From Anaerolineae bacterium (GTDB lineage Bacteria > Chloroflexota > Anaerolineae > JAAYZQ01): a DNA stretch of 25,337 bases. The DNA lies in the NCBI GenBank assembly GCA_016929795.1, contig JAFGIA010000331.1, forward strand, positions 1-25,337, in the 5' to 3' direction. Under the pieces are notes generated by a model. That model was not told the DNA's origin. It worked only from the letters and a program-made list of their open reading frames with translations, and ran no database searches. A program made the position numbers and the translations under genes. Positions 3,733 through 23,897 of the stretch are shown here, one piece after another. The stretch's first letter is position 1; the number at the start of each line of letters is the position of its first letter.

Positions 3733-3823
3733 CTGTCATTGCCAGTTCATCCATGGCGCCGGCACCACTCAGCCTGTGAGAACCTGTCATTGCGAGCCAG
3801 CGCCAGCGAGCAAAGCAATCCCC
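3733..3823 (+). repeat. Interspersed palindromic repeat, copy A
   Basis: This stretch reads CTGTCATTGCCAG, then CATGGCGCCGGCACCACTCA, then CCTGTCATTGCGAG and finally AGCGAGCAAAGCAATCC. Its reverse complement matches, with few differences, the two tandem units at 16095-16195. The CTGTCATTGCGAG...AGCAATCC part resembles a palindromic repeat seen in many draft bacterial genomes. It lies between the csp terminator and the promoter of the acetyltransferase. The open frame through it has no coding character. Confidence 0.85.
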
Positions 3824-9013: not shown

Positions 9014-10657
9014 ATGTCTGAAGAAGCACGGTTTTACGAGCGGGCAGAGCATTGGTTCTATCGGCTGCTGGAGTTCAACCCCGTGGCCGCGACCCAGATC
9101 GGCGATCATCGGTTCGACGACCAGTTGGCAGACATGAGCGGCCAAGCGCTCGATCGCCAGCAACAAGAGATCCTGAGCGCCCTGGCCGAATTTCGGGCGA
9201 TCGACCGATCCGGCTTGGCCCTCAGCGCGCAGATCGACCATGAGCTGACGGTCGCCATCTTTGAGATGTTTGCGCGCGAGTACGAGCAGGGGCGCGGCCA
9301 CCTGCGCAATCCCGGCACCTACCTGGACGAGGTAACCGCCGGCGTCTTTTTGCTGACCCTGCTCGACTTTGCCCCACTGCCGCAGCGGCTGGCATCGGCC
9401 CTCGGCCGCGTGCGCCAGGTGCCGCGCGTGCTGCGCGAAGGGCGCGCCAACCTGGTTCCGGCCGAGGTGCCGCCCGTGTGGGCCGAGATCGCGCTGGAGC
9501 AGGCAGCGTCTGTGCCCGGCCTCTACCTCGGCCTCCTGCCCATGATCGCCTCCCAGGCTGCCCCCGACCTGGTGGAGCCGTTGACAGAGGCAGGACAGGC
9601 AGCCGCGGCAGCAGTACAGGAGTTTGCCACCTACCTGCAGGAAGAGGTGCTGCCGGTGGCCAGGGGCGATTTCGCCGCAGGCACCGACCTCTTTAACCAG
9701 AAGCTGGCCCGCGAGCACATGGTGGATTACGATGCCGACCAGTTGATCGAGATCGGATGGGAGATATTCCACCACACGCGCGAGCAGATGCAGACTGTCG
9801 CCGCCGAGATCGACCCCCACCGCACCGTGCGCCAGATCCTGGAAGACGCCAAGAACGATCACCCCACGGCCGAGATGCTGATCGAAGCGTACCAAAAAGA
9901 GATGACTGCCATCCGCCAGTACGTGATCGACCAGGGCATTGCCACCATCCCACCCGGCGAGCAGCTCAAGGTGATCGAGACCCCATCCTTCTTGCGGCCG
10001 ATCCTGCCCTACGCGGCCTACATGCAGCCCGGCCTGCTCGAAGAAAAGCAGGAAGGTCACTTTCTGGTCACCCCCATCGATCCCGATTCGCCGCCGGAAG
10101 AGCAGGAGCAAACGCTAAAGGGCCACTACTGGGCCAAGCTGCCCATCACGGCGCTGCACGAGGCCTATCCGGGCCACCACCTGCAGCTTATCTGGGCCAA
10201 CCGCCAGCCCACCATTCCACGCCGCCTCGGCTCAATCATCGCCACCCTATTCATCGAGGGCTGGGCGTTCTACTGCGAAGAGCTGCTCGAAGAGCTGGGC
10301 TACATCTCCCAGCCTGTGCAGCGACTGGGCCGGTTGTCCGATCAGCTCTGGCGCGCGGCGCGCATCATCCTCGACGTGTCGCTCCATACACGCGGCATGC
10401 CGGTGGACGATGCCGTGGCCATGCTCGTCGACGAGTGCGGCCTGGAGCCGGCCAACGCGCTGGCAGAGGTGCGGCGCTACACCCAGACCCCGACCCAGCC
10501 CCAGTCGTACCTGATGGGCAAGCGCGCCATCCTCAACCTGGTGGAGGATTATCGTCGTGCCCACCCCGGCGTCACGCTGCGCGAGCTGCACGACGCCATC
10601 CTGGGCGCAGGCTCGCTGCCGCCGCGCCTGATGCGCAGGCACCTGGGGCTGGATTAG
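9014..10657 (+). CDS. DUF885 family putative metallo-hydrolase
   Basis: A 547-residue, mostly helical protein without a signal peptide, so probably cytoplasmic. It carries the DUF885 metal site HEAYPGHHLQ (382-391) and the downstream EGWAFYCEE (415-423), whose glutamate is the likely third ligand. DUF885 proteins resemble zinc carboxypeptidase-like metallopeptidases; activity has been shown for few members, so peptidase function is inference. AAGGAG a few bases upstream supports ATG 9014. It follows the pyrophosphorylase by 27 nt and could be on the same transcript, without an obvious functional link. Confidence 0.88.
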   Translation: MSEEARFYERAEHWFYRLLEFNPVAATQIGDHRFDDQLADMSGQALDRQQQEILSALAEFRAIDRSGLALSAQIDHELTVAIFEMFAREYEQGRGHLRNPGTYLDEVTAGVFLLTLLDFAPLPQRLASALGRVRQVPRVLREGRANLVPAEVPPVWAEIALEQAASVPGLYLGLLPMIASQAAPDLVEPLTEAGQAAAAAVQEFATYLQEEVLPVARGDFAAGTDLFNQKLAREHMVDYDADQLIEIGWEIFHHTREQMQTVAAEIDPHRTVRQILEDAKNDHPTAEMLIEAYQKEMTAIRQYVIDQGIATIPPGEQLKVIETPSFLRPILPYAAYMQPGLLEEKQEGHFLVTPIDPDSPPEEQEQTLKGHYWAKLPITALHEAYPGHHLQLIWANRQPTIPRRLGSIIATLFIEGWAFYCEELLEELGYISQPVQRLGRLSDQLWRAARIILDVSLHTRGMPVDDAVAMLVDECGLEPANALAEVRRYTQTPTQPQSYLMGKRAILNLVEDYRRAHPGVTLRELHDAILGAGSLPPRLMRRHLGLD

Positions 10658-10662
10658 AACGA

Positions 10663-10722
10663 TAGATTGGTAGATTGGTACCAATTTACCAATCTACCAA
10701 TCTACCAATCTACCGATCTACC
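10663..10722. repeat. Hairpin of tandem 8-mers (AGATTGGT / ACCAATCT)
   Basis: The left arm TAGATTGGTAGATTGGTA (10663-10680) is exactly complementary to 10687-10704, with a 6-nt CCAATT loop. The right side continues the 8-mer ACCAATCT for a third and a variant fourth copy (ACCGATCT) up to 10722. It fills the gap between the DUF885 stop and the YigZ start and could terminate or stabilise transcripts. There is no T-run. Confidence 0.9.
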
Positions 10723-13617: not shown

Positions 13618-14325
13618 ATGTTCGACAATATGCTGATCGTCATCGCGCTGGCCGTCGTGGTGGTGCTCGTCTCCCGCGCCGCGCGCATCTGGATCGACTC
13701 GCGCGCGCTCGGCTGGCCCCTGCTGCGCCGGCTCGGCTGGGCGCTGCTCGGCGCGGTGGCACCCAGCAGCTACTGGTGGGAAGCGCGCGTGCAGGCGCTC
13801 GAGGGCGAGGCGCAGGAGGCGCTGGTTGACGCCGAGATGGCGACGCTCGATCTCGACCAGCCCGACGCGCTCGAATGCCCCCTGTGTGGCGCGCAGGTGC
13901 CGCGCGCCTGGACGGTCGATGCGAAAGGGCGCGTCACCGTCGCGCCGGGGCCGGTCGAGTGCCCCGCGTGCGACTTTCGGCTCGACGCCTGCCGCCACTG
14001 TGCCCACTTTTTGCCCGGCCTGCCACACGGCTGGGCACAGCCGGCATTTGCCGACGACGACATGACCTACGGCCGCTGTGGTTTCTACAAGGCGGTTCAG
14101 CCCGTGGAGCAGGCCGCCGATCCCGACATGGCACGCCAGCTAAAAGTGCGCGGCTATGACCAGATCCGCGCCCCACGACCCATCGCCGACAGTTTCCTTC
14201 CCCCCGATAGCTGCCGCGCCTTCAAGCCCGACCGTCGCCGGCTCAAGATGGGCGGGGTCAAGTGGCCCGACACGCGCCGCACGGCGCTGATGAAAGGGGC
14301 AAGGGACAGGGGTGAAACAGGTTAG
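13618..14325 (+). CDS. Membrane-anchored zinc-ribbon protein of unknown function
   Basis: A 235-residue protein with one N-terminal membrane helix (about 4-22) and a cysteine-rich body. The pairs CPLCG (87-91), CPACDF (115-120) and CRHCAHF (125-131), with GRCGFYK (152-158) and SCRAF (198-202), give eight cysteines, enough for one zinc ribbon and a second metal site. I do not recognise a named family. ATG 13618 is chosen because the frame farther up would use the promoter itself as coding sequence. No Shine-Dalgarno is present, which fits a leaderless mRNA. The end overlaps the serine dehydratase start by 14 nt, so the two are probably coupled, though a functional link is not evident. Confidence 0.82.
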   Translation: MFDNMLIVIALAVVVVLVSRAARIWIDSRALGWPLLRRLGWALLGAVAPSSYWWEARVQALEGEAQEALVDAEMATLDLDQPDALECPLCGAQVPRAWTVDAKGRVTVAPGPVECPACDFRLDACRHCAHFLPGLPHGWAQPAFADDDMTYGRCGFYKAVQPVEQAADPDMARQLKVRGYDQIRAPRPIADSFLPPDSCRAFKPDRRRLKMGGVKWPDTRRTALMKGARDRGETG

Positions 14326-15883
14326 CATCCTCAACGACGTGCTCGGCCCCGTGATGCGCGGGCCGAGCAGCTCGCACACCGCGGCGCCCTTTTACATCGG
14401 CGCCATGGCGCGTGCCCTGGGCCGAACCGGCCTGGGCGACGAGCCGGCGGCGGTGACGTTCACCTTCGACCCGGGCGGGTCGTGGGCCGAGGTCTACCGC
14501 GAGCAGGGCAGCGACCGGGGCTTTGCCGCCGGCATCCTCGGCTGGACGCTCACCGATCCTCGCTTTCGCCAGTCGCTCGACGCGGCGCGGCAGGCAGGCG
14601 TCGAGATCCGTTTTCACGTCGCGCCACTGGCGAGGGCCGATCACCCCAACACGGTCGACATCCGCCTGACAGGACGGCGGGGAGGGACGCTGCATGTTGT
14701 CGCGAGGTCGATCGGCGGCGGCGCGCTGGTCTTTACGCAGGTCGGCGGCTGGGCAGTCGAGCTGGCGGGCGACACCCACGAGGTGCTGGTCGAGCTGGAG
14801 GCGGGCGAGGCCGACGAGGGCGAGGTGGCGCGGCTGCTGGCGCCCGCCGAGATCGAGGCGCAGGCGCGGGACAGTCGCCGGCTGATCCGCGCCAGGCGGC
14901 GTGCGGTGCTGCCCGGCGCCGCGCTCGACGCCGTGCGCGCGCTGCCCGGCGTGCGCCACGTGTGGGCCGCGCCGCCTGTCTATTTCGCCATCCAGGGCGA
15001 CCGGCTGTTCGACTGTGCCGCACAGGCAGTAGCGCTGGCGGAAGAGCGCGGCTGGTCGCTGGGCCGGACCGCCCTGGCCTACGAAGCAGCACTGCTCGAC
15101 CTGCCGGAGAGCGAGGTGCTCGCCGAGATGGGGCGCCGGTTTGAGGTGATGCGCGCCGCGGCCGAGCGCGGCCTGGGCGACGAGCTGCCGCCGATGCAGC
15201 TCCTGGCGCCGAGCGCCGGGCGGATCTATCGCGCCGAAGGCGAGGGCCGGCTGGCGATCGGCGGGCTGCACACGCGCGCGGCGGCGCGGGCCATGGCAGT
15301 CATGCACGTCAACGGCGGCATGGGCGTGGTGTGCGCCGCGCCCACGGCCGGCTCGGCGGGCACCCTGCCCGGCGTGGCGGTGACACTGTTCGAGGAGCTG
15401 GGGCTGGACGAGGAAGAGATCGCCCTGGCCCTGCTGGCGGCCGGCGCGGTGGGCATGGTGGTCGGCACGCGGGCCACCTTCGCGGCGGAAGTGGCCGGCT
15501 GCCAGGTAGAGATCGGCGCGTCGGGGGCAATGGCCGCGGCGGCGGTGGTGGAAACGGCGGGCGGCAGCGCGCGCCAGGCGTGCGACGCAGCGGCCATCGC
15601 CTTCCAAAACACGATGGGCTCGGTGTGCGACCTGGTGCAGGGGATCGTGGAGGTACCGTGCCACACGCGCAACGCCGTGGCGGCGTCGAGCGCGTTCGTG
15701 TGCGCCGACCTGATCCTGGGCGGCTACCACAACCCGGTGCCGCTCGACGAGACGATCGACGCCGTGTACGCCGTGGGTCAGATGTTACCACGGGAGCTAA
15801 AGGTGACGGCGCTGGGTGGATTGGCGCTGGCGCCGTCGGCGCTGGCGATGGAGCGGCGGGCGTTCGACTCGTCGGCTCAGTGA
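14312..15883 (+). CDS. sdaA: L-serine ammonia-lyase, iron-sulfur-dependent, single chain
   Basis: It deaminates L-serine to pyruvate and ammonia with a [4Fe-4S] cluster in the cytoplasm. The 523-residue chain joins the beta domain (MRGPSSSHTAAP, 15-26) to the catalytic alpha domain (VCAAPTAGSAGTLPG, 340-354). Three cysteines, C397 (AGCQVEIG), C439 (SVCDLVQG) and C450 (VPCHTRN), have spacings of 42 and 11, the same as the cluster ligands I recall for E. coli SdaA. It is somewhat longer than the usual 455-residue single-chain form, mainly in the middle. GTG 14312 lies in the end of the zinc-ribbon gene, with a purine-rich AAGGGACAGGG site just before it. Confidence 0.94.
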   Translation: MKQVSILNDVLGPVMRGPSSSHTAAPFYIGAMARALGRTGLGDEPAAVTFTFDPGGSWAEVYREQGSDRGFAAGILGWTLTDPRFRQSLDAARQAGVEIRFHVAPLARADHPNTVDIRLTGRRGGTLHVVARSIGGGALVFTQVGGWAVELAGDTHEVLVELEAGEADEGEVARLLAPAEIEAQARDSRRLIRARRRAVLPGAALDAVRALPGVRHVWAAPPVYFAIQGDRLFDCAAQAVALAEERGWSLGRTALAYEAALLDLPESEVLAEMGRRFEVMRAAAERGLGDELPPMQLLAPSAGRIYRAEGEGRLAIGGLHTRAAARAMAVMHVNGGMGVVCAAPTAGSAGTLPGVAVTLFEELGLDEEEIALALLAAGAVGMVVGTRATFAAEVAGCQVEIGASGAMAAAAVVETAGGSARQACDAAAIAFQNTMGSVCDLVQGIVEVPCHTRNAVAASSAFVCADLILGGYHNPVPLDETIDAVYAVGQMLPRELKVTALGGLALAPSALAMERRAFDSSAQ

Positions 15884-15930
15884 GGCGTGGGGCCGGGCGA
15901 CAGAGGTACCCCCTCGGCAGCAATCGCACG

Positions 15931-16057
15931 GTAGAGCCGCAGACGGCCATGAAGTGGCCGTCCTACAGAGCTTCCGCCCGATGAATCGGGCTCAGAACCC
16001 CGTTCACGGGGTGTAAGCTTTGTAGCCGGGGTCATTCATGCCCCGGCGGTCTGCGGC
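15931..16057. repeat. Multi-hairpin REP/BIME-like element with TGAA/TTCA loops
   Basis: Outer stem GCCGCAGAC (15936-15944) with GTCTGCGGC (16049-16057). Inside are hairpin 1 GACGGCCA-TGAAG-TGGCCGTC (15942-15962) and stem 2 CTACAGAGCTT (15963-15973) with AAGCTTTGTAG (16015-16025, one G-T pair). Stem 2 encloses GCCCGA-TGAA-TCGGGC (15976-15991) and ACCCCG-TTCA-CGGGGT (15997-16012). Hairpin 3, GCCGGGG/CCCCGGC with a TTCA tip, covers 16025-16047. GTAG precedes hairpin 3 on the plus strand and hairpin 1 on the minus strand, as in REP elements. Hairpin 1 and the outer stem share three bases. There is no coding frame. Confidence 0.9.
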
Positions 16058-16064
16058 ACGCCAC

Positions 16065-16114
16065 TAAGAAACTGTCATCGCTCGCTAGCGCTCACTCGCA
16101 ATGACAGTTTCTTA
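16065..16114. repeat. 14-bp perfect hairpin (TAAGAAACTGTCAT)
   Basis: TAAGAAACTGTCAT (16065-16078) is the exact reverse complement of 16101-16114, with a 22-nt loop containing GCTCGCTAGCGCTCACTCGC. The right arm is also the start of the first tandem unit of the 50-bp repeat, so this is a terminal inverted copy of the same repeat family. Confidence 0.88.
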
Positions 16115-16208
16115 CAGGCTGAGTGGCGCCGGCGCCATAGATAACTCGCAACGACAGGTTCTTGAGTGCTGAGTGGCGCCCGCGCCATGGCTCAACTCGC
16201 AACGACAG
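16095..16208 (-). repeat. Interspersed repeat copy B: two tandem 50-51 bp units plus a partial
   Basis: Units start with CTCGCAATGACAG (16095), CTCGCAACGACAG (16145) and CTCGCAACGACAG (16196, partial). Each full unit contains GCTGAGTGGCGCC then GCGCCAT. The reverse complement matches copy A at 3733-3796. The array ends about 35 nt before the promoter of the exonuclease gene. Repeat length and divergence do not fit a CRISPR. Confidence 0.88.
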
Positions 16209-16242
16209 ATTTGGACAGGGCAGGAACAGGCCAGCCGGACGT

Positions 16243-16271
16243 TTGCCCACACGTCGCACCTGTGCTATACT
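16243..16271 (+). promoter_or_regulatory. Extended -10 promoter of the exonuclease/PatB pair
   Basis: TTGCCC (16243-16248), a 17-nt spacer and TATACT (16266-16271), with the extended -10 TGC just before it (16263-16265). The predicted start is near 16278. AAGGAGG (16282-16288) and GTG 16298 follow. Confidence 0.8.
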
Positions 16272-16297
16272 GAGGCCAGACAAGGAGGCTGCACCGC

Positions 16298-16891
16298 GTG
16301 GCAAAGAAACTCGACCAGATCCTGGTCGTGGACCTGGAATCGACGTGCTGGGCCGGAGACCCCCCCCCGGGAGAAGAGCACGAGATCATCGAGATCGGCC
16401 TGTGCGTGCTCGACGTAGCCACGGGCCGCCGCCTCGACAACCGGAGCATCCTGATCTGCCCCACCTGCTCGCGCATCAGCGACTATTGCCGTGAGCTGAC
16501 GACACTCACCCAAAACGAGGTTGAGGCCGGCGTGACGCTGGCCGAAGCGTGCCGTGCGCTGCGCGAGAATTTTGGCGCGCGCCGCCGGCCGTGGGCGAGC
16601 TGGGGCGACTATGACCGGAAGCAGCTCCAGCGCGAGTGCCAGGCCAAAAGCGTCGAGTATCCCTTTGGCGACCGGCACATCAACGCCAAAACGCTCTTTG
16701 CCCTGGTGCGGGGCTTGAAAAGAGAGGTGGGCCTGGATAGCGCGCTCGACATGCTCGGCTTCCCACTGGAAGGCACGCACCACCGCGGCGGCGACGATGC
16801 GTGGAACATTGCCCGCATCCTGGCCTGGCTGCTGGCAGCGGCCCGCACCGGCGGTGAGGCAGCCCTGGCACACAACCCCAACCCGGAGTGA
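16298..16891 (+). CDS. DEDDh 3'-5' exonuclease, ERI-1/KapD-like
   Basis: A 197-residue single-domain exonuclease of the RNase T/DNA pol III epsilon fold. The two-metal motifs are visible: VVDLEST (Asp12, Glu14), SWGDYDRKQ (Asp104) and HHRGGDDAWN (His162 with Asp166 or Asp167). HHRG-DDA-N is typical of the ERI-1/KapD subgroup, which trims RNA 3' ends. Extra cysteines (CPTCSRISDYC, 54-64) sit between motifs and might hold a metal, which is inference. AAGGAGG 9 nt upstream supports GTG 16298. The PLP enzyme starts 10 nt after the stop and shares the transcript without a clear functional link. Confidence 0.9.
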   Translation: MAKKLDQILVVDLESTCWAGDPPPGEEHEIIEIGLCVLDVATGRRLDNRSILICPTCSRISDYCRELTTLTQNEVEAGVTLAEACRALRENFGARRRPWASWGDYDRKQLQRECQAKSVEYPFGDRHINAKTLFALVRGLKREVGLDSALDMLGFPLEGTHHRGGDDAWNIARILAWLLAAARTGGEAALAHNPNPE

Positions 16892-20978: not shown

Positions 20979-21039
20979 GAAAATCGGCACAGTTGAGACA
21001 TTCGGTGGACAGATCCGGGAGACGCTGTGCCGACTTTTC
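20979..21039 (+). promoter_or_regulatory. Inverted repeat burying the methylase start codon
   Basis: GAAAATCGGCACAG (20979-20992) can pair with CTGTGCCGACTTTTC (21025-21039): nine pairs, a bulged C and five more pairs. The GTG start (21027-21029) is in the stem, and the GGGAG ribosome site (21017-21021) is in the 32-nt loop. In mRNA this could restrict initiation; as DNA it could be an operator. Confidence 0.65.
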
Positions 21040-23897
21040 TTGAACAAGGCGTGCTCGATCGGTTACGCCGGCTGCCGGCAGGCGGCCTGTCCACTGCCCA
21101 AGCGCTGATCTGCGACACGCTGCACTACCCGCCGGCAGGCGATCTTTTGTCGCGTGCCCAGTGGCCCGAGCGCGCGCGGCAGGCAGTCCCAGCCGATCCC
21201 CTCCTCCTGGCGCGCTACCCGGCGGGCGACACCTCATTCGACGTGATCTATGCCCAGATCCCGCTCGCTGGCAGTGGAGGCCATGTCCGCCTGTCGCGCA
21301 CAGCAGAGCACATGGCAGCGAGCGCACTGCTGCGGGATCATCCAACCCTGCTTCTGCTCTTCACCGATGCACAAGAGCGCTGTTGGGAGCTGGTGAGCGT
21401 GCAGACAGGGGGTGACGCACGGCCGGCTCTCCACCGCATCGTGGTGACCCCGGACAGGCCGTTGGGGGGCGCGGCGGGATGCGTGGCCAGGCTCGATCTG
21501 GCCTCGATGGCAGGGCCGTTGCCGGGCACGCTGGCGCCCGCATGGATCGCGCAGCGGCACGCGGAGGCGTTCGACGCCGACGCGCTCGGGCGCGAGTTCC
21601 TGGAGCGCCTGGCCCAAGTGCACGGGCAAGTGCGCGACGCGATCGATGTATCCGCCGACGGCGTCGACTCGAGCGCCCAGGCACAGGCACTGCTCGACAG
21701 GTTGCTCATCCTCCATTTTCTCCAGAAGGGAGGCTGGCTGGGCAATAGCCAGACCTACCTGCGCGACCGATTTCGTGCCCACCACGCGGCCCCCCAGGGC
21801 CGGACCTTTCACCGGGATGTGGCCTATCCGCTGTACCACGCCCTGTCAGATCTGCTGGCAGGCATGCCGGGCGCAGACCTGGCCCCCCCTCACGCAGGCC
21901 TGCCTGTGCCCGACGATACCTATGCCACCCTCTTTGACGAGCTGTTCGAATACTATGATCTCACGCTCGACGAGGATAGCCTCTTTGACCGAACCGTCGC
22001 CATCGGGCCTGACATCCTGGGCAAGGTGTTCGAAAGCCTGGTTCTGCCACGCGAGAAGGAGGGGGACGTGGACAAGCGACGGGCGACGGGATCATACTAT
22101 ACGCCGCGTCCCGTGGTGGCCTTTATGTGCCGCGAGGCGCTGGCCGAGTACCTGGCCAGCGAGGCCGGCCTGGATCGAGAGCGTGCGGGCCGCCTGCTGG
22201 CACTGCCGCCGGAAGGGATGCTGGCCGAAGGGGAACGGCAATGGCTGGCCGGCGCGTTTTCGGGTGCGCAGGCACAGCACGTGCGGCGTGCGCTGCTGAA
22301 CGTGCGGGCGTGCGACGCGGCAGCCGGCTCGGGCGCCTTTCTCGTCGGGCTGTTGCAGGCGATCTCGGCGGCCGTCGAAACGCTGGCGTGGCGAGTGGCG
22401 GGTAAAGCACCCCCGGCAGGGCGGCAGCGTGGGTACGAAACCAAGCGCGCCATTGTGGAGCAATGCCTGCATGGCGTGGATCTGCAGCCCGGTGCCGTGC
22501 GGGCGTGTGCACTGCGCTTGTGGCTGAGCCTCCTCGCCGCATACGAGCCCGGGGATGCGGCAGGCACAACGGCAGCCACGGACAGCCACCCCGGCCAGGC
22601 GCCGGAACCGGGCACCGCCCTCACCCTCCCGCCGCACCTGCTGCCTGACCTCTCGCGCACGCTGCGCCAGGGCGATGGCCTGCTCGAGCGGCTGGGCAAC
22701 GGCGATGGCACGCCGTTCCGTTGGCGAGACGACTTTCGAGACGTGTTTGAAGAAAAAGGTGGATTCGACCTCATGATCGGCAACCCGCCCTACAGCGCCA
22801 GGGTGTCGAGAGGCGATTGGGCCGAAATCAAGGCCAGGTATGTCGGCGCCGCGCGCGCCAGGAACCCGGCAGCCGCCTTCCTGGCCCTGCCCTTTGACTG
22901 CGTACACGAGCAGGGCGTGGCCTGCCAGATCGTGCCCAAATCGGTGACCTTTTCGGCGGGGTGGAGGGCCACACGCCGGCTGATCTGGGAAAGAGGAACG
23001 CTCGTCGGATCGGCCGACGTCAGCCAGGCGTTCGAGGGCGTGCTGTTGGAGCAAGAGGTGTTGATCTACCGGGTGAGGCCGGCGCAGGAAATAAAGCCAC
23101 GTGGCTGGGCGCTGCGCGGCCAGGCCTTTGAGGAGACACACCGCGCGCCCCTGGCGATCCTGAAGCAGCACGATGCGATCATGAACCACGTGCCGCCCCT
23201 GGCGGGGGCACTGATAGAGCGGCTGACCGCGGGCTGCATGCCGCTGGGGCTGCACACAATCACGCGCCGCGGCGCAGGATGGCAGGCGCACCTCGTGGCC
23301 CCCAGCGATGCCGGGCCACCCACCACCCCCGTGATACGCGGGCGCGACGTACGCCAGTTTGGCCTGGCACGGCCACTACCACGCATCGCCGTCCTCCCCG
23401 GCATGGCCCACAGACTGGGTGCAATGACGGTGCCCAAGATCGTATCACAGAACATTATCGCGCACATCACGCAGCCGTACGACACACTGGTGGTCATCTC
23501 GGCGCTCGACAGGGCGGGCCTGGCCGCCCTCGACACGGTGAACATGACCACGCCCCGCCGCGGGTGCCCCTTCCCTGTCGAGTTTGTCGTGGCCCTGCTC
23601 AACAGCTCGTTCGCGCGTTGGTACTTTTACTTTGTGATCTATAACCGGGCCGTGCGCACCATGCACTTGGACGCACCCTACATTGGCAAGCTGCCAGTGC
23701 CGGCAGCGGTGGGGGCCGAGATCGACACCATCTGTGCGCTGGCGGACAACCTGGCGCGCACGCAGGAGGGAGAAGGGATCAAATACTTTTTACATGGACA
23801 CCACCCGCTGTACGACGCCCTCGACGAGGCCCTTTTTCGCCTGTACGCCCTGACCGATCAAGAGATAGGGCTGGTGCTTCGCGAGAGTGAGTCCTAA
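21027..23897 (+). CDS. Eco57I-type N6-adenine DNA methylase, possible type IIG-like restriction-modification protein
   Basis: A 956-residue protein. The N-terminal 240 residues include LLLLFTDAQERCWELVSVQ and a helical stretch LLDRLLILHFLQKGGWLGN found in large Eco57I/PglX-like methylases. The methyltransferase core has motif X TGSYYTP (354-360), motif I ACDAAAGSGAFLVG (428-441), GVDLQPGAVRA and the catalytic NPPY (586-589), which define an adenine-N6 methylase with permuted order. The C-terminal 300 residues look like a target-recognition region. I see no clear PD-(D/E)xK nuclease motif, so cleavage is unproven. No partner nuclease, specificity subunit or BREX/DISARM gene adjoins it. The GTG start with GGGAG 5 nt upstream lies in an inverted repeat. 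The stop overlaps the convergent DUF58 gene. Confidence 0.9.
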   Translation: MPTFLEQGVLDRLRRLPAGGLSTAQALICDTLHYPPAGDLLSRAQWPERARQAVPADPLLLARYPAGDTSFDVIYAQIPLAGSGGHVRLSRTAEHMAASALLRDHPTLLLLFTDAQERCWELVSVQTGGDARPALHRIVVTPDRPLGGAAGCVARLDLASMAGPLPGTLAPAWIAQRHAEAFDADALGREFLERLAQVHGQVRDAIDVSADGVDSSAQAQALLDRLLILHFLQKGGWLGNSQTYLRDRFRAHHAAPQGRTFHRDVAYPLYHALSDLLAGMPGADLAPPHAGLPVPDDTYATLFDELFEYYDLTLDEDSLFDRTVAIGPDILGKVFESLVLPREKEGDVDKRRATGSYYTPRPVVAFMCREALAEYLASEAGLDRERAGRLLALPPEGMLAEGERQWLAGAFSGAQAQHVRRALLNVRACDAAAGSGAFLVGLLQAISAAVETLAWRVAGKAPPAGRQRGYETKRAIVEQCLHGVDLQPGAVRACALRLWLSLLAAYEPGDAAGTTAATDSHPGQAPEPGTALTLPPHLLPDLSRTLRQGDGLLERLGNGDGTPFRWRDDFRDVFEEKGGFDLMIGNPPYSARVSRGDWAEIKARYVGAARARNPAAAFLALPFDCVHEQGVACQIVPKSVTFSAGWRATRRLIWERGTLVGSADVSQAFEGVLLEQEVLIYRVRPAQEIKPRGWALRGQAFEETHRAPLAILKQHDAIMNHVPPLAGALIERLTAGCMPLGLHTITRRGAGWQAHLVAPSDAGPPTTPVIRGRDVRQFGLARPLPRIAVLPGMAHRLGAMTVPKIVSQNIIAHITQPYDTLVVISALDRAGLAALDTVNMTTPRRGCPFPVEFVVALLNSSFARWYFYFVIYNRAVRTMHLDAPYIGKLPVPAAVGAEIDTICALADNLARTQEGEGIKYFLHGHHPLYDALDEALFRLYALTDQEIGLVLRESES

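Follow-up and report, generated by a model that had tools for sequence, protein, structure and literature searches.

A four-hairpin, REP-dimer-like repeat family of Chloroflexota and its Y1 transposase neighbours

The systems closest to the element studied here are the GTAG REPs. The accessible portion of Di Nocera 2013 (PMC3733652) describes such repeats together with dimers that have GTAG on their inside and with structured spacers, and counts Chloroflexi among the phyla in which GTAG repeats occur. Some known REP-dimer spacers also carry stem-loops according to that portion, in which two stem-loops at the spacer ends are named for the CGTC-3 dimers of A. tumefaciens and a GTAG case was not found. 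On the side of the enzymes, the part of Quentin 2018 (PMC6006769) at hand describes a rare class 3 of TnpAY1 proteins, combining an IS200-like signature with a REPtron-like surround.

The stretch of DNA that we have analysed, called here the window, is 25,337 nucleotides long and contains an element of this general kind. Like GTAG REPs, the element and its relatives are small palindromes present in many copies; they have a GTAG foot and form inverted pairs with GTAG on the inner side, the 'TT' dimer of the accessible text of PMC3733652. As in the GTAG REPs and REPtrons treated in the available parts of PMC3733652 and PMC6006769, the stems show alternative complementary residues and units are found around a Y1 gene. 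They depart from GTAG REP dimers, BIMEs and REPINs in their fixed form, in which four hairpins with TNAA/TTNA loops have an inner stem in common, and from REP systems in that the partners are IS200-like by NCBIfam. With TnpAY1 class 3, as described in the same part of PMC6006769, they may share an IS200-like Y...Q signature in a REPtron-like surround (the signature is written there with four dashes and is Y-x-x-x-Q here), and both have many genomic copies. However, the class 3 foot is given there as CnGA and its hosts as principally Planctomycetes, Acidobacteria and Proteobacteria, whereas here the foot is mostly GTAG/CTAC and the hosts are Chloroflexota. As in A. variabilis GTAG-15 and H. neapolitanus CGTC-1, which the accessible text of PMC3733652 places regularly within inverted repeats, the dimers can be enclosed by such repeats, but here these are of several types, with duplications of 4, 6, 8 or 9 bp, and one type is shared with an IS701-family gene. 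Finally, the copies of one relative (G002, the genome of locus L002, recorded as Chloroflexi bacterium SpSt-1225) resemble IS701-type MITEs in their terminal inverted repeats (TIRs), their 4-bp duplications (6/9) and a probable autonomous partner. Unlike IS701-type and other MITEs, the copy in the window is free of such ends, and the core is common to elements with other ends or with none.

We propose, with a probability of about 0.8, that the element is a non-autonomous mobile DNA unit, namely an inverted pair of GTAG-footed REPs that encloses two spacer hairpins and is mobilised by a Y1 enzyme. The two outer REP-like hairpins, inverted and with a GTAG foot each, would be united by the common inner stem, and the two smaller hairpins would be a structured spacer within the unit. 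In single-stranded DNA, a small IS200-like HuH (Y1) enzyme would most likely recognise, cut and rejoin hairpins and feet, its gene being placed among the unit copies in many relatives. A second route in relatives may be carriage inside TIR elements, which in one type have ends in common with a transposase gene of the IS701 family. The family adds to the known systems a REP-like repeat that is widespread in one class of Chloroflexota, has a fixed four-hairpin form and is adjoined by IS200-like transposases, and it bears on the open question of the origin of REP systems from IS200 transposons.

The unit in the window and its conserved fold

The conserved four-hairpin unit, a quasi-palindromic, REP-dimer-like cassette, extends over positions 15941..16047 (~107 bases); it is assigned to neither strand, and a covariance model built without the window (R2) matches it on both. 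Hairpin 1 (15942..15962, minus strand), the first outer REP, consists of GACGGCCA, the loop TGAAG and TGGCCGTC, and is followed by CTAC (15963..15966), the GTAG foot of this hairpin on the minus strand. The same position begins the 5' side of the inner stem, CTACAGAGCTT (15963..15973, plus strand, as all features that follow), which pairs with its 3' side, AAGCTTTGTAG (16015..16025), as read from the sequence. Enclosed between them the DNA fold gives hairpin 2 (15976..15991; GCCCGA / TGAA / TCGGGC) and hairpin 3 (15997..16012; ACCCCG / TTCA / CGGGGT). The end of the 3' side of the inner stem is the GTAG foot (16022-16025) of hairpin 4 (16025..16047), the second outer REP, with a loop containing TTCA; the foot was read from the sequence and both outer hairpins from sequence and DNA fold. 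An outer inverted repeat of 9 bp, with arms GCCGCAGAC (15936..15944, overlapping the base of hairpin 1) and GTCTGCGGC (16049..16057), is visible in the sequence and is not conserved.

The preliminary description had read four hairpins, an inner stem of 11 bp (with one G.T pair) and the 9-bp outer repeat from the sequence alone, together with GTAG feet in opposite orientations, and all of them are present at the coordinates claimed; the four-hairpin observation is thus confirmed. Its near-symmetry was borne out as well, R2 finding the window with 85.5 bits (E 3.8e-14) on the plus strand and with 81.4 bits on the minus strand. The extent it had assigned, 15931..16057, has to be narrowed, as relatives keep the unit 15941-16047 and not the outer stem (50.4% of cells paired in alignment A1). 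Hairpin 1 uses the inner GAC of the outer stem as its base as well, and therefore the two cannot both fully form.

Folded as DNA, the element gives the four hairpins at -42 kcal/mol, against a mean of -20.9 for shuffled sequences (z -7.5), and none of the 200 shuffles folded as well. The region around it is GC-rich, where hairpins might arise by chance, but given the shuffles, the independent match by R2 and the many relatives this reading has a negligible probability; plain chance is rejected by the first two. The minimum-energy fold as RNA (-77 kcal/mol, z -7.9) fuses the middle two hairpins into one arm. This merged arm was discarded, as on alignment A1 (15 of the 30 extracted copies plus the window) it left 82.3% of cells paired with four double-change pairs, whereas four separate hairpins gave 89.4% and seven pairs with double changes.

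Compensatory changes, which the preliminary description had proposed to look for, are abundant in relatives. Alignment A3 consists of the window and 13 copies picked by hand from G002 and from G003 (the latter is the genome of locus L003, recorded as an Anaerolineales bacterium). It has 39 cells in which both members of a pair have changed, where shuffles give 14.4, and the signal disappears once the partners are shifted along; its count of double-change pairs, 11 against 8.3, is less striking (32 of 500 shuffles were as high). Alignment A5 (MAFFT; 16 hand-chosen, mostly top-scoring copies, the window excluded) has double changes at 24/36 pairs and in 78 cells, against 11.3 and 21.1 in shuffles (0/500). 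There, the helix of hairpin 1 is 99.2% paired with double changes at 5/8 pairs, the inner helix is 87.5% paired, and the helices of hairpins 2, 3 and 4 have double changes at 5/6, 4/6 and 6/8 pairs. The largest set takes its rows from 30 genomes that lie outside the first covariance model (R1), the best of each genome, and there 96.1% of cells are paired, with 29/36 pairs and 178 cells doubly changed against 15.6 and 47.7 (0/1000 shuffles as high), in rows that are top-scoring and were selected and aligned by the model, which favours it. For this set the best row per locus was taken, and the loci of R1 (L089, L103, L122, L213, L214 and the window) and three further loci of G199 were dropped. 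Judging from these alignments, the four-hairpin structure is under selection.

In the same 30 genomes loops and feet vary least: the loop is TNAA at hairpins 1 and 2 (28/30 and 29/30) and TTNA at hairpins 3 and 4 (23/30 and 29/30), and the feet are CTAC and GTAG. That all four tips are TGAA or TTCA, as had been noted, is true in the window but not strictly in relatives, where these exact loops occur at hairpins 1-4 in 18, 10, 18 and 22 of the 30. The foot after hairpin 1 is CTAC in 24/30 of the other genomes. Before hairpin 4 we found GTA in 19/30 (9+9+1 rows) and as next base G in 30/30, and thus a GTAG foot in 19/30; this G column makes 29 G-C pairs and one G-U pair. With loops and feet fixed in this manner, each half, on its own strand, reads alike: the foot and then a hairpin with a TNAA loop. 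A divergent four-hairpin unit of 55 bits at L227 (genome G333), which keeps the TNAA/TTNA loops and is without clear GTAG feet, may be a sign of a wider superfamily.

The unit lies between two genes of the same strand, an L-serine dehydratase gene (SDH_alpha; 14312..15883, plus strand) that ends 52 bases before the outer stem, and a gene for an RNase_T-type exonuclease (16298..16891, plus strand), an ordinary neighbouring gene. This gap of 414 bases contains also a repeat at 16058-16211. The closest serine dehydratase fragment (83%, part of the protein), at L076, has the same next gene, and the orthologous gap there is 72 bases long and element-free; the covariance model found no unit in that genome at the thresholds used. 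Gain of the unit in the lineage of the window is the simpler reading, loss or deletion in L076 being the alternative. We found one promoter-like site at 16243-16271, ahead of the exonuclease gene.

The gene setting, the strong covariation (G-U pairs included) and the plausible transcription of many REPs (Di Nocera 2013, PMC3733652, in its accessible part) would suit a structured RNA, co-transcribed with the upstream gene as a 3' stabiliser, attenuator or processing site, the copies of which are kept as useful. However, the model scores are similar on both strands, the copies are spread over many places, some with target duplications, and the orthologous gap of L076 is free of the element; nor is there a terminator-like site in 15850-16320 or a gathering-level match in Rfam. 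We therefore consider a structured RNA quite unlikely as the main explanation, while the unit may have a secondary role at the RNA level. Identity with a described RNA family was ruled out, since Rfam 15 gave no match to the window at gathering score (two sub-threshold matches, sR53 and mir-653, fall near the unit).

Distribution of the family

Judged by the R2 match, the window is shown to belong to a family of four-hairpin repeats. The relatives were found in steps of different sensitivity. The serine dehydratase search led to Chloroflexota relatives, among others. A DNA search of nine relative genomes (E<=0.01) gave at least 27 places in G002, one each in G003 and G004, and no unit in the other six. 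By blastn, relatives were seen in two of the 11 genomes of G002's family and in at least 3/400 genomes of the phylum (two candidates scored per genome), few enough that a covariance model was needed. R1 rests on the window plus 13 copies (from G002 and G003), and its E-values, like those of R2, are rough. At E<=0.001 it matched at least 88/396 genomes of G003's class and at least 11/400 genomes drawn across the phylum; the counts are lower bounds, since nine or ten candidates were scored per genome. Ten genomes were searched more closely and four of them had matches at E<=0.01. The same model, which gave matches in the class, phylum and ten-genome searches, found none in 46 genomes of other phyla (E<=0.001, 86 candidates scored per genome), an empty result that is informative only alongside those positives. 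T. roseum (GTAG-23) is reportedly a Chloroflexi host of GTAG repeats.

The copies can be very numerous. With the best 150 candidates scored and matches on both strands able to count, we found at least 142 unit matches in G530, at least 150 in G546 and at least 150 in G651; the same scoring gave 47 in G436, 19 in G601 and 16 in G518, and none in G009. The matches listed for G546 fall in at least 79 different places. Six of the seven relatives therefore have many dispersed copies per genome (16 to 150 matches), as in REPs, and the covariance-model search of Chloroflexota suggested in the preliminary description has produced many related copies. Covariation and the copies in other genomes weigh against the refutation that it had envisaged. 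Within the window itself a half-unit pattern with three mismatches allowed had no match, and a DNA pattern with the exact inner stem had none in viral contigs. That no named family has this design also stood, with Rfam empty at gathering level and no description of the four-hairpin family found in the literature searched (most subscription journals lying outside its scope).

Y1 transposase genes beside the units

A search for transposase genes, likewise proposed beforehand, found Y1 genes with adjoining units in the relatives. Pfam PF01797 was detected at E<=1e-6 in 232 of the 396 genomes of the class, and more often in the unit-bearing ones (73/88) than in those without the unit (159/308; odds ratio 4.6, p 8e-8, a value uncorrected for kinship or genome size, in a Pfam family that also covers ordinary IS200). 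At the level of loci, R2 units lie within 2 kb at 29 of 79 Y1 loci at E<=0.01, and at 13/79 at E<=1e-5. They were present at 19/51 Y1 loci of genomes with strong copies and at 10/28 in genomes without (11/51 and 7/28 with R1), whereas 397 kb of control stretches had no unit at E<=0.02 with R2, and R1 gave the same. Fisher's test of Y1 loci against control gives 5e-12, using 93 control windows that were derived from the control length and are an approximation. The 79 loci were hand-picked from the matches listed, and are hence non-random, and many are truncated at the end of a contig. As control, 20 stretches, unscreened for Y1 genes, were chosen on long contigs, 14 of the stretches in genomes with strong units and six in genomes without. 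Counting against the participation of Y1, 50 of the 79 loci are without a unit at E<=0.01, and G002, which holds the closest copies in the DNA search of nine genomes, had no Y1 match in its draft genome. In high-copy genomes some proximity to Y1 genes is also expected by chance (G546 has about one listed place per 48 kb).

Individual loci show how units and gene are arranged. Two units lie on either side of a Y1 gene in G546, and a same gene pair has two whole units in G546 and a lone hairpin in G530. The partner Y1 genes of G546 and G530 are located at L351 (1857-2348, minus strand) and L317 (1995-2486, plus strand), respectively. In G003, a Y1 gene adjoins six units in a row, of which the sixth is truncated where the contig stops; with R1, units were found at three of the seven Y1 loci of this genome, one of them being in the model. 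The flanking copies are 97% (G530), 96% (G546), 89% (G651) and 86% (G003) alike to dispersed copies of their own genome. However, copies of G530 and G546 are 96-99% alike between the two genomes, and a G659 copy is as close or closer to those of G651 (92%) and G003 (87%), so that these values do not establish that each gene goes strictly with its own type of unit. In the relatives, then, the structure with its covariation goes together with dispersal in many copies and enrichment beside Y1 genes. The Y1 enzyme would act on the units through hairpins and GTAG, and the copy in the window would have arrived in this way.

The preliminary description had compared the layout with REP/BIME elements mobilised by RAYT transposases. 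A mobile element is supported in relatives, but the partners that we tested score as IS200-like and not as canonical RAYTs. Four partner proteins scored 67-76 bits with the NCBIfam IS200 model NF033573 (cut-off 55), and had no match or at most 24.4 bits with that for REP-associated transposases, NF047646 (cut-off 80), so that a canonical RAYT as partner was under the cut-off in 4/4 proteins. The unit would work like a REP dimer, yet the partners tested fail the canonical REP-transposase test. The L343 partner matched eight solved sequences, all of them transposases, the best being 2xm3 (E 8.5e-11) and others 2ec2 and 2a6m; 2xm3 we take to be ISDra2. The signature Y-x-x-x-Q was present in 17/17 readable frames of the 21 flanked Y1 loci. 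In a tree of 72 Y1 proteins (14 of 86 loci having no usable Y1 frame), a branch of 13 (support 99/95) includes seven of the 17 flanked genes; among its other six, five have weak adjoining matches (E 0.0002 to 0.04, in 20 kb with filters off). To place the flanked genes the tree needs 10 changes, whereas shuffles give 15.5 (1/500 as low). They are not one clade, and a single origin, seen in 0% of bootstrap trees, was rejected.

These proteins also raise the option that the unit is a fused pair of IS200/IS605 ends, that is, a non-autonomous IS derivative and not of REP type. The four partners above the IS200 cut-off and far below that for REP transposases would agree with it, as would the structure matches of the L343 partner and the Y...Q signature in all the flanked loci that could be read. 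On the other hand, whole units, sometimes several, stand on both sides of the gene (L351, L343) with no left-end and right-end types, Y1 matches are few (two, four and three in G530, G546 and G651, against the at least 142 to at least 150 unit matches), and GTAG at the feet of hairpins is a REP feature. We regard a fused pair of IS ends as unlikely, and prefer the REP pair mobilised by Y1.

Units inside elements with terminal inverted repeats

The support for a mobile element extends to an arrangement that the preliminary description had not foreseen, i.e., units within TIR elements. An element of G002, some 200 bases in length and bounded by ends like TTTGACAATGGCACATT, has the unit as its core. 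One or both of these ends lie near 22 of the 27 places listed, and flanks of 4 bp are identical in 6/9 of the copies measured. Similar ends enclose a gene of the IS701 family coding for 465 aa. This IS701-family element (L182, positions 759-2373; NF033540, E 2e-61) has TTAA on both sides by eye, and is the probable autonomous partner of the unit-bearing elements of G002. A second end type of the same genome, GTAACCGTTCAG, was found in L122, L191, L196 and L198, with both ends only in L196 and L198, where the 8-bp repeat is perfect and has one mismatch, respectively; these ends presumably resemble those of IS66 type. The copies of G601 have different ends and perfect 9-bp repeats in 3/3. Yet other ends are found in G651, with 6-bp repeats in two of the four copies measured; two more copies had no match by the script, and one of them, L408, has a 6-bp repeat by eye. 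A unit-bearing element at L249 (G500), with ends ATGAAAGTTA..TAACTTTCAT, seems by eye to be inserted in another four-hairpin unit, and the copies of G436 have ends similar to those of L249.

Flanking inverted repeats above the 99% control were found in 10 of 40 dispersed units (43 places, three of them without flank; the test misses short or degenerate ends, e.g., L222). Four of these ten (L089, L404, L415 and L420) had been listed after their ends were already seen, two (L245 and L267) represent neighbouring units, and L248 is almost a palindrome; the three remaining are L249, L258 and L261, the last from the same genome as L420. Among the units adjoining Y1 genes, 1/18 was above this control, through a tandem neighbour, and weak ends resembling the G651 type accompany the unit at 1226 of L343, a neighbour of the Y1 gene of G651 (with 10.0 they score above the 95% but below the 99% control). 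In the window the best flanking inverted repeat, skipping the 9-bp outer stem, reaches a score of 7.5, where the 95% control stands at 9.5.

One could conclude that the unit is just the inside of MITEs of DDE transposons, unrelated to Y1, and that the window has a decayed MITE. The TTTGACAATGGCACATT-like ends, the 4-bp flanks and the IS701-family gene of G002 speak for it, and so do the further end types of G002, G601 and G651 and the weak ends of the L343 unit beside a Y1 gene. The ends, however, vary among genomes while the unit is constant, 30 of the 40 dispersed units do not exceed the 99% control for flanking inverted repeats, the only unit to do so beside a Y1 gene owes it to its tandem neighbour, and 29 of the 79 Y1 loci have units against none in the control. 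A MITE origin with no part for Y1, including decay of a MITE in the window, is in our view very improbable. The unit is thus not tied to one end type, and the TIR elements look like a second vehicle besides the Y1 mobilisation that we favour.

Two unrelated chemistries may be combined in one hyper-mobile module, namely single-strand cutting by an IS200-like Y1 enzyme that has become REP-like, and repeated capture of the unit between unrelated DDE ends (an IS701 type with duplications of 4 bp, and others with 6, 8 and 9 bp). We put this forward tentatively, at slightly under even odds. If true, MITEs of different origin across the class would share one core, and the family would represent an intermediate stage linking IS200 transposons to domesticated RAYT/REP systems. 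A core common to different MITEs also points to other transposons as carriers that can spread REP-type units.

The window has other repeats besides the unit. The one at 16058-16211, with a second location at 3733-3811, is imperfect, has the core CTCGCAATGACAG and is not part of the four-hairpin unit; its copies stand in tandem behind the unit, with another in inverted orientation at a distance of 12 kb (87% identity), and it had one weak match among the loci fetched (L349, E 0.0009). Inverted and tandem 10-base repeats, TAGATTGGTA / TACCAATCTA, occupy 10655-10720, and similar stretches are found in L250 at ~1280-1365. Finally, positions 21027-23897 code for a protein of 956 aa with an Eco57I-type methylase domain, probably a restriction-modification enzyme.
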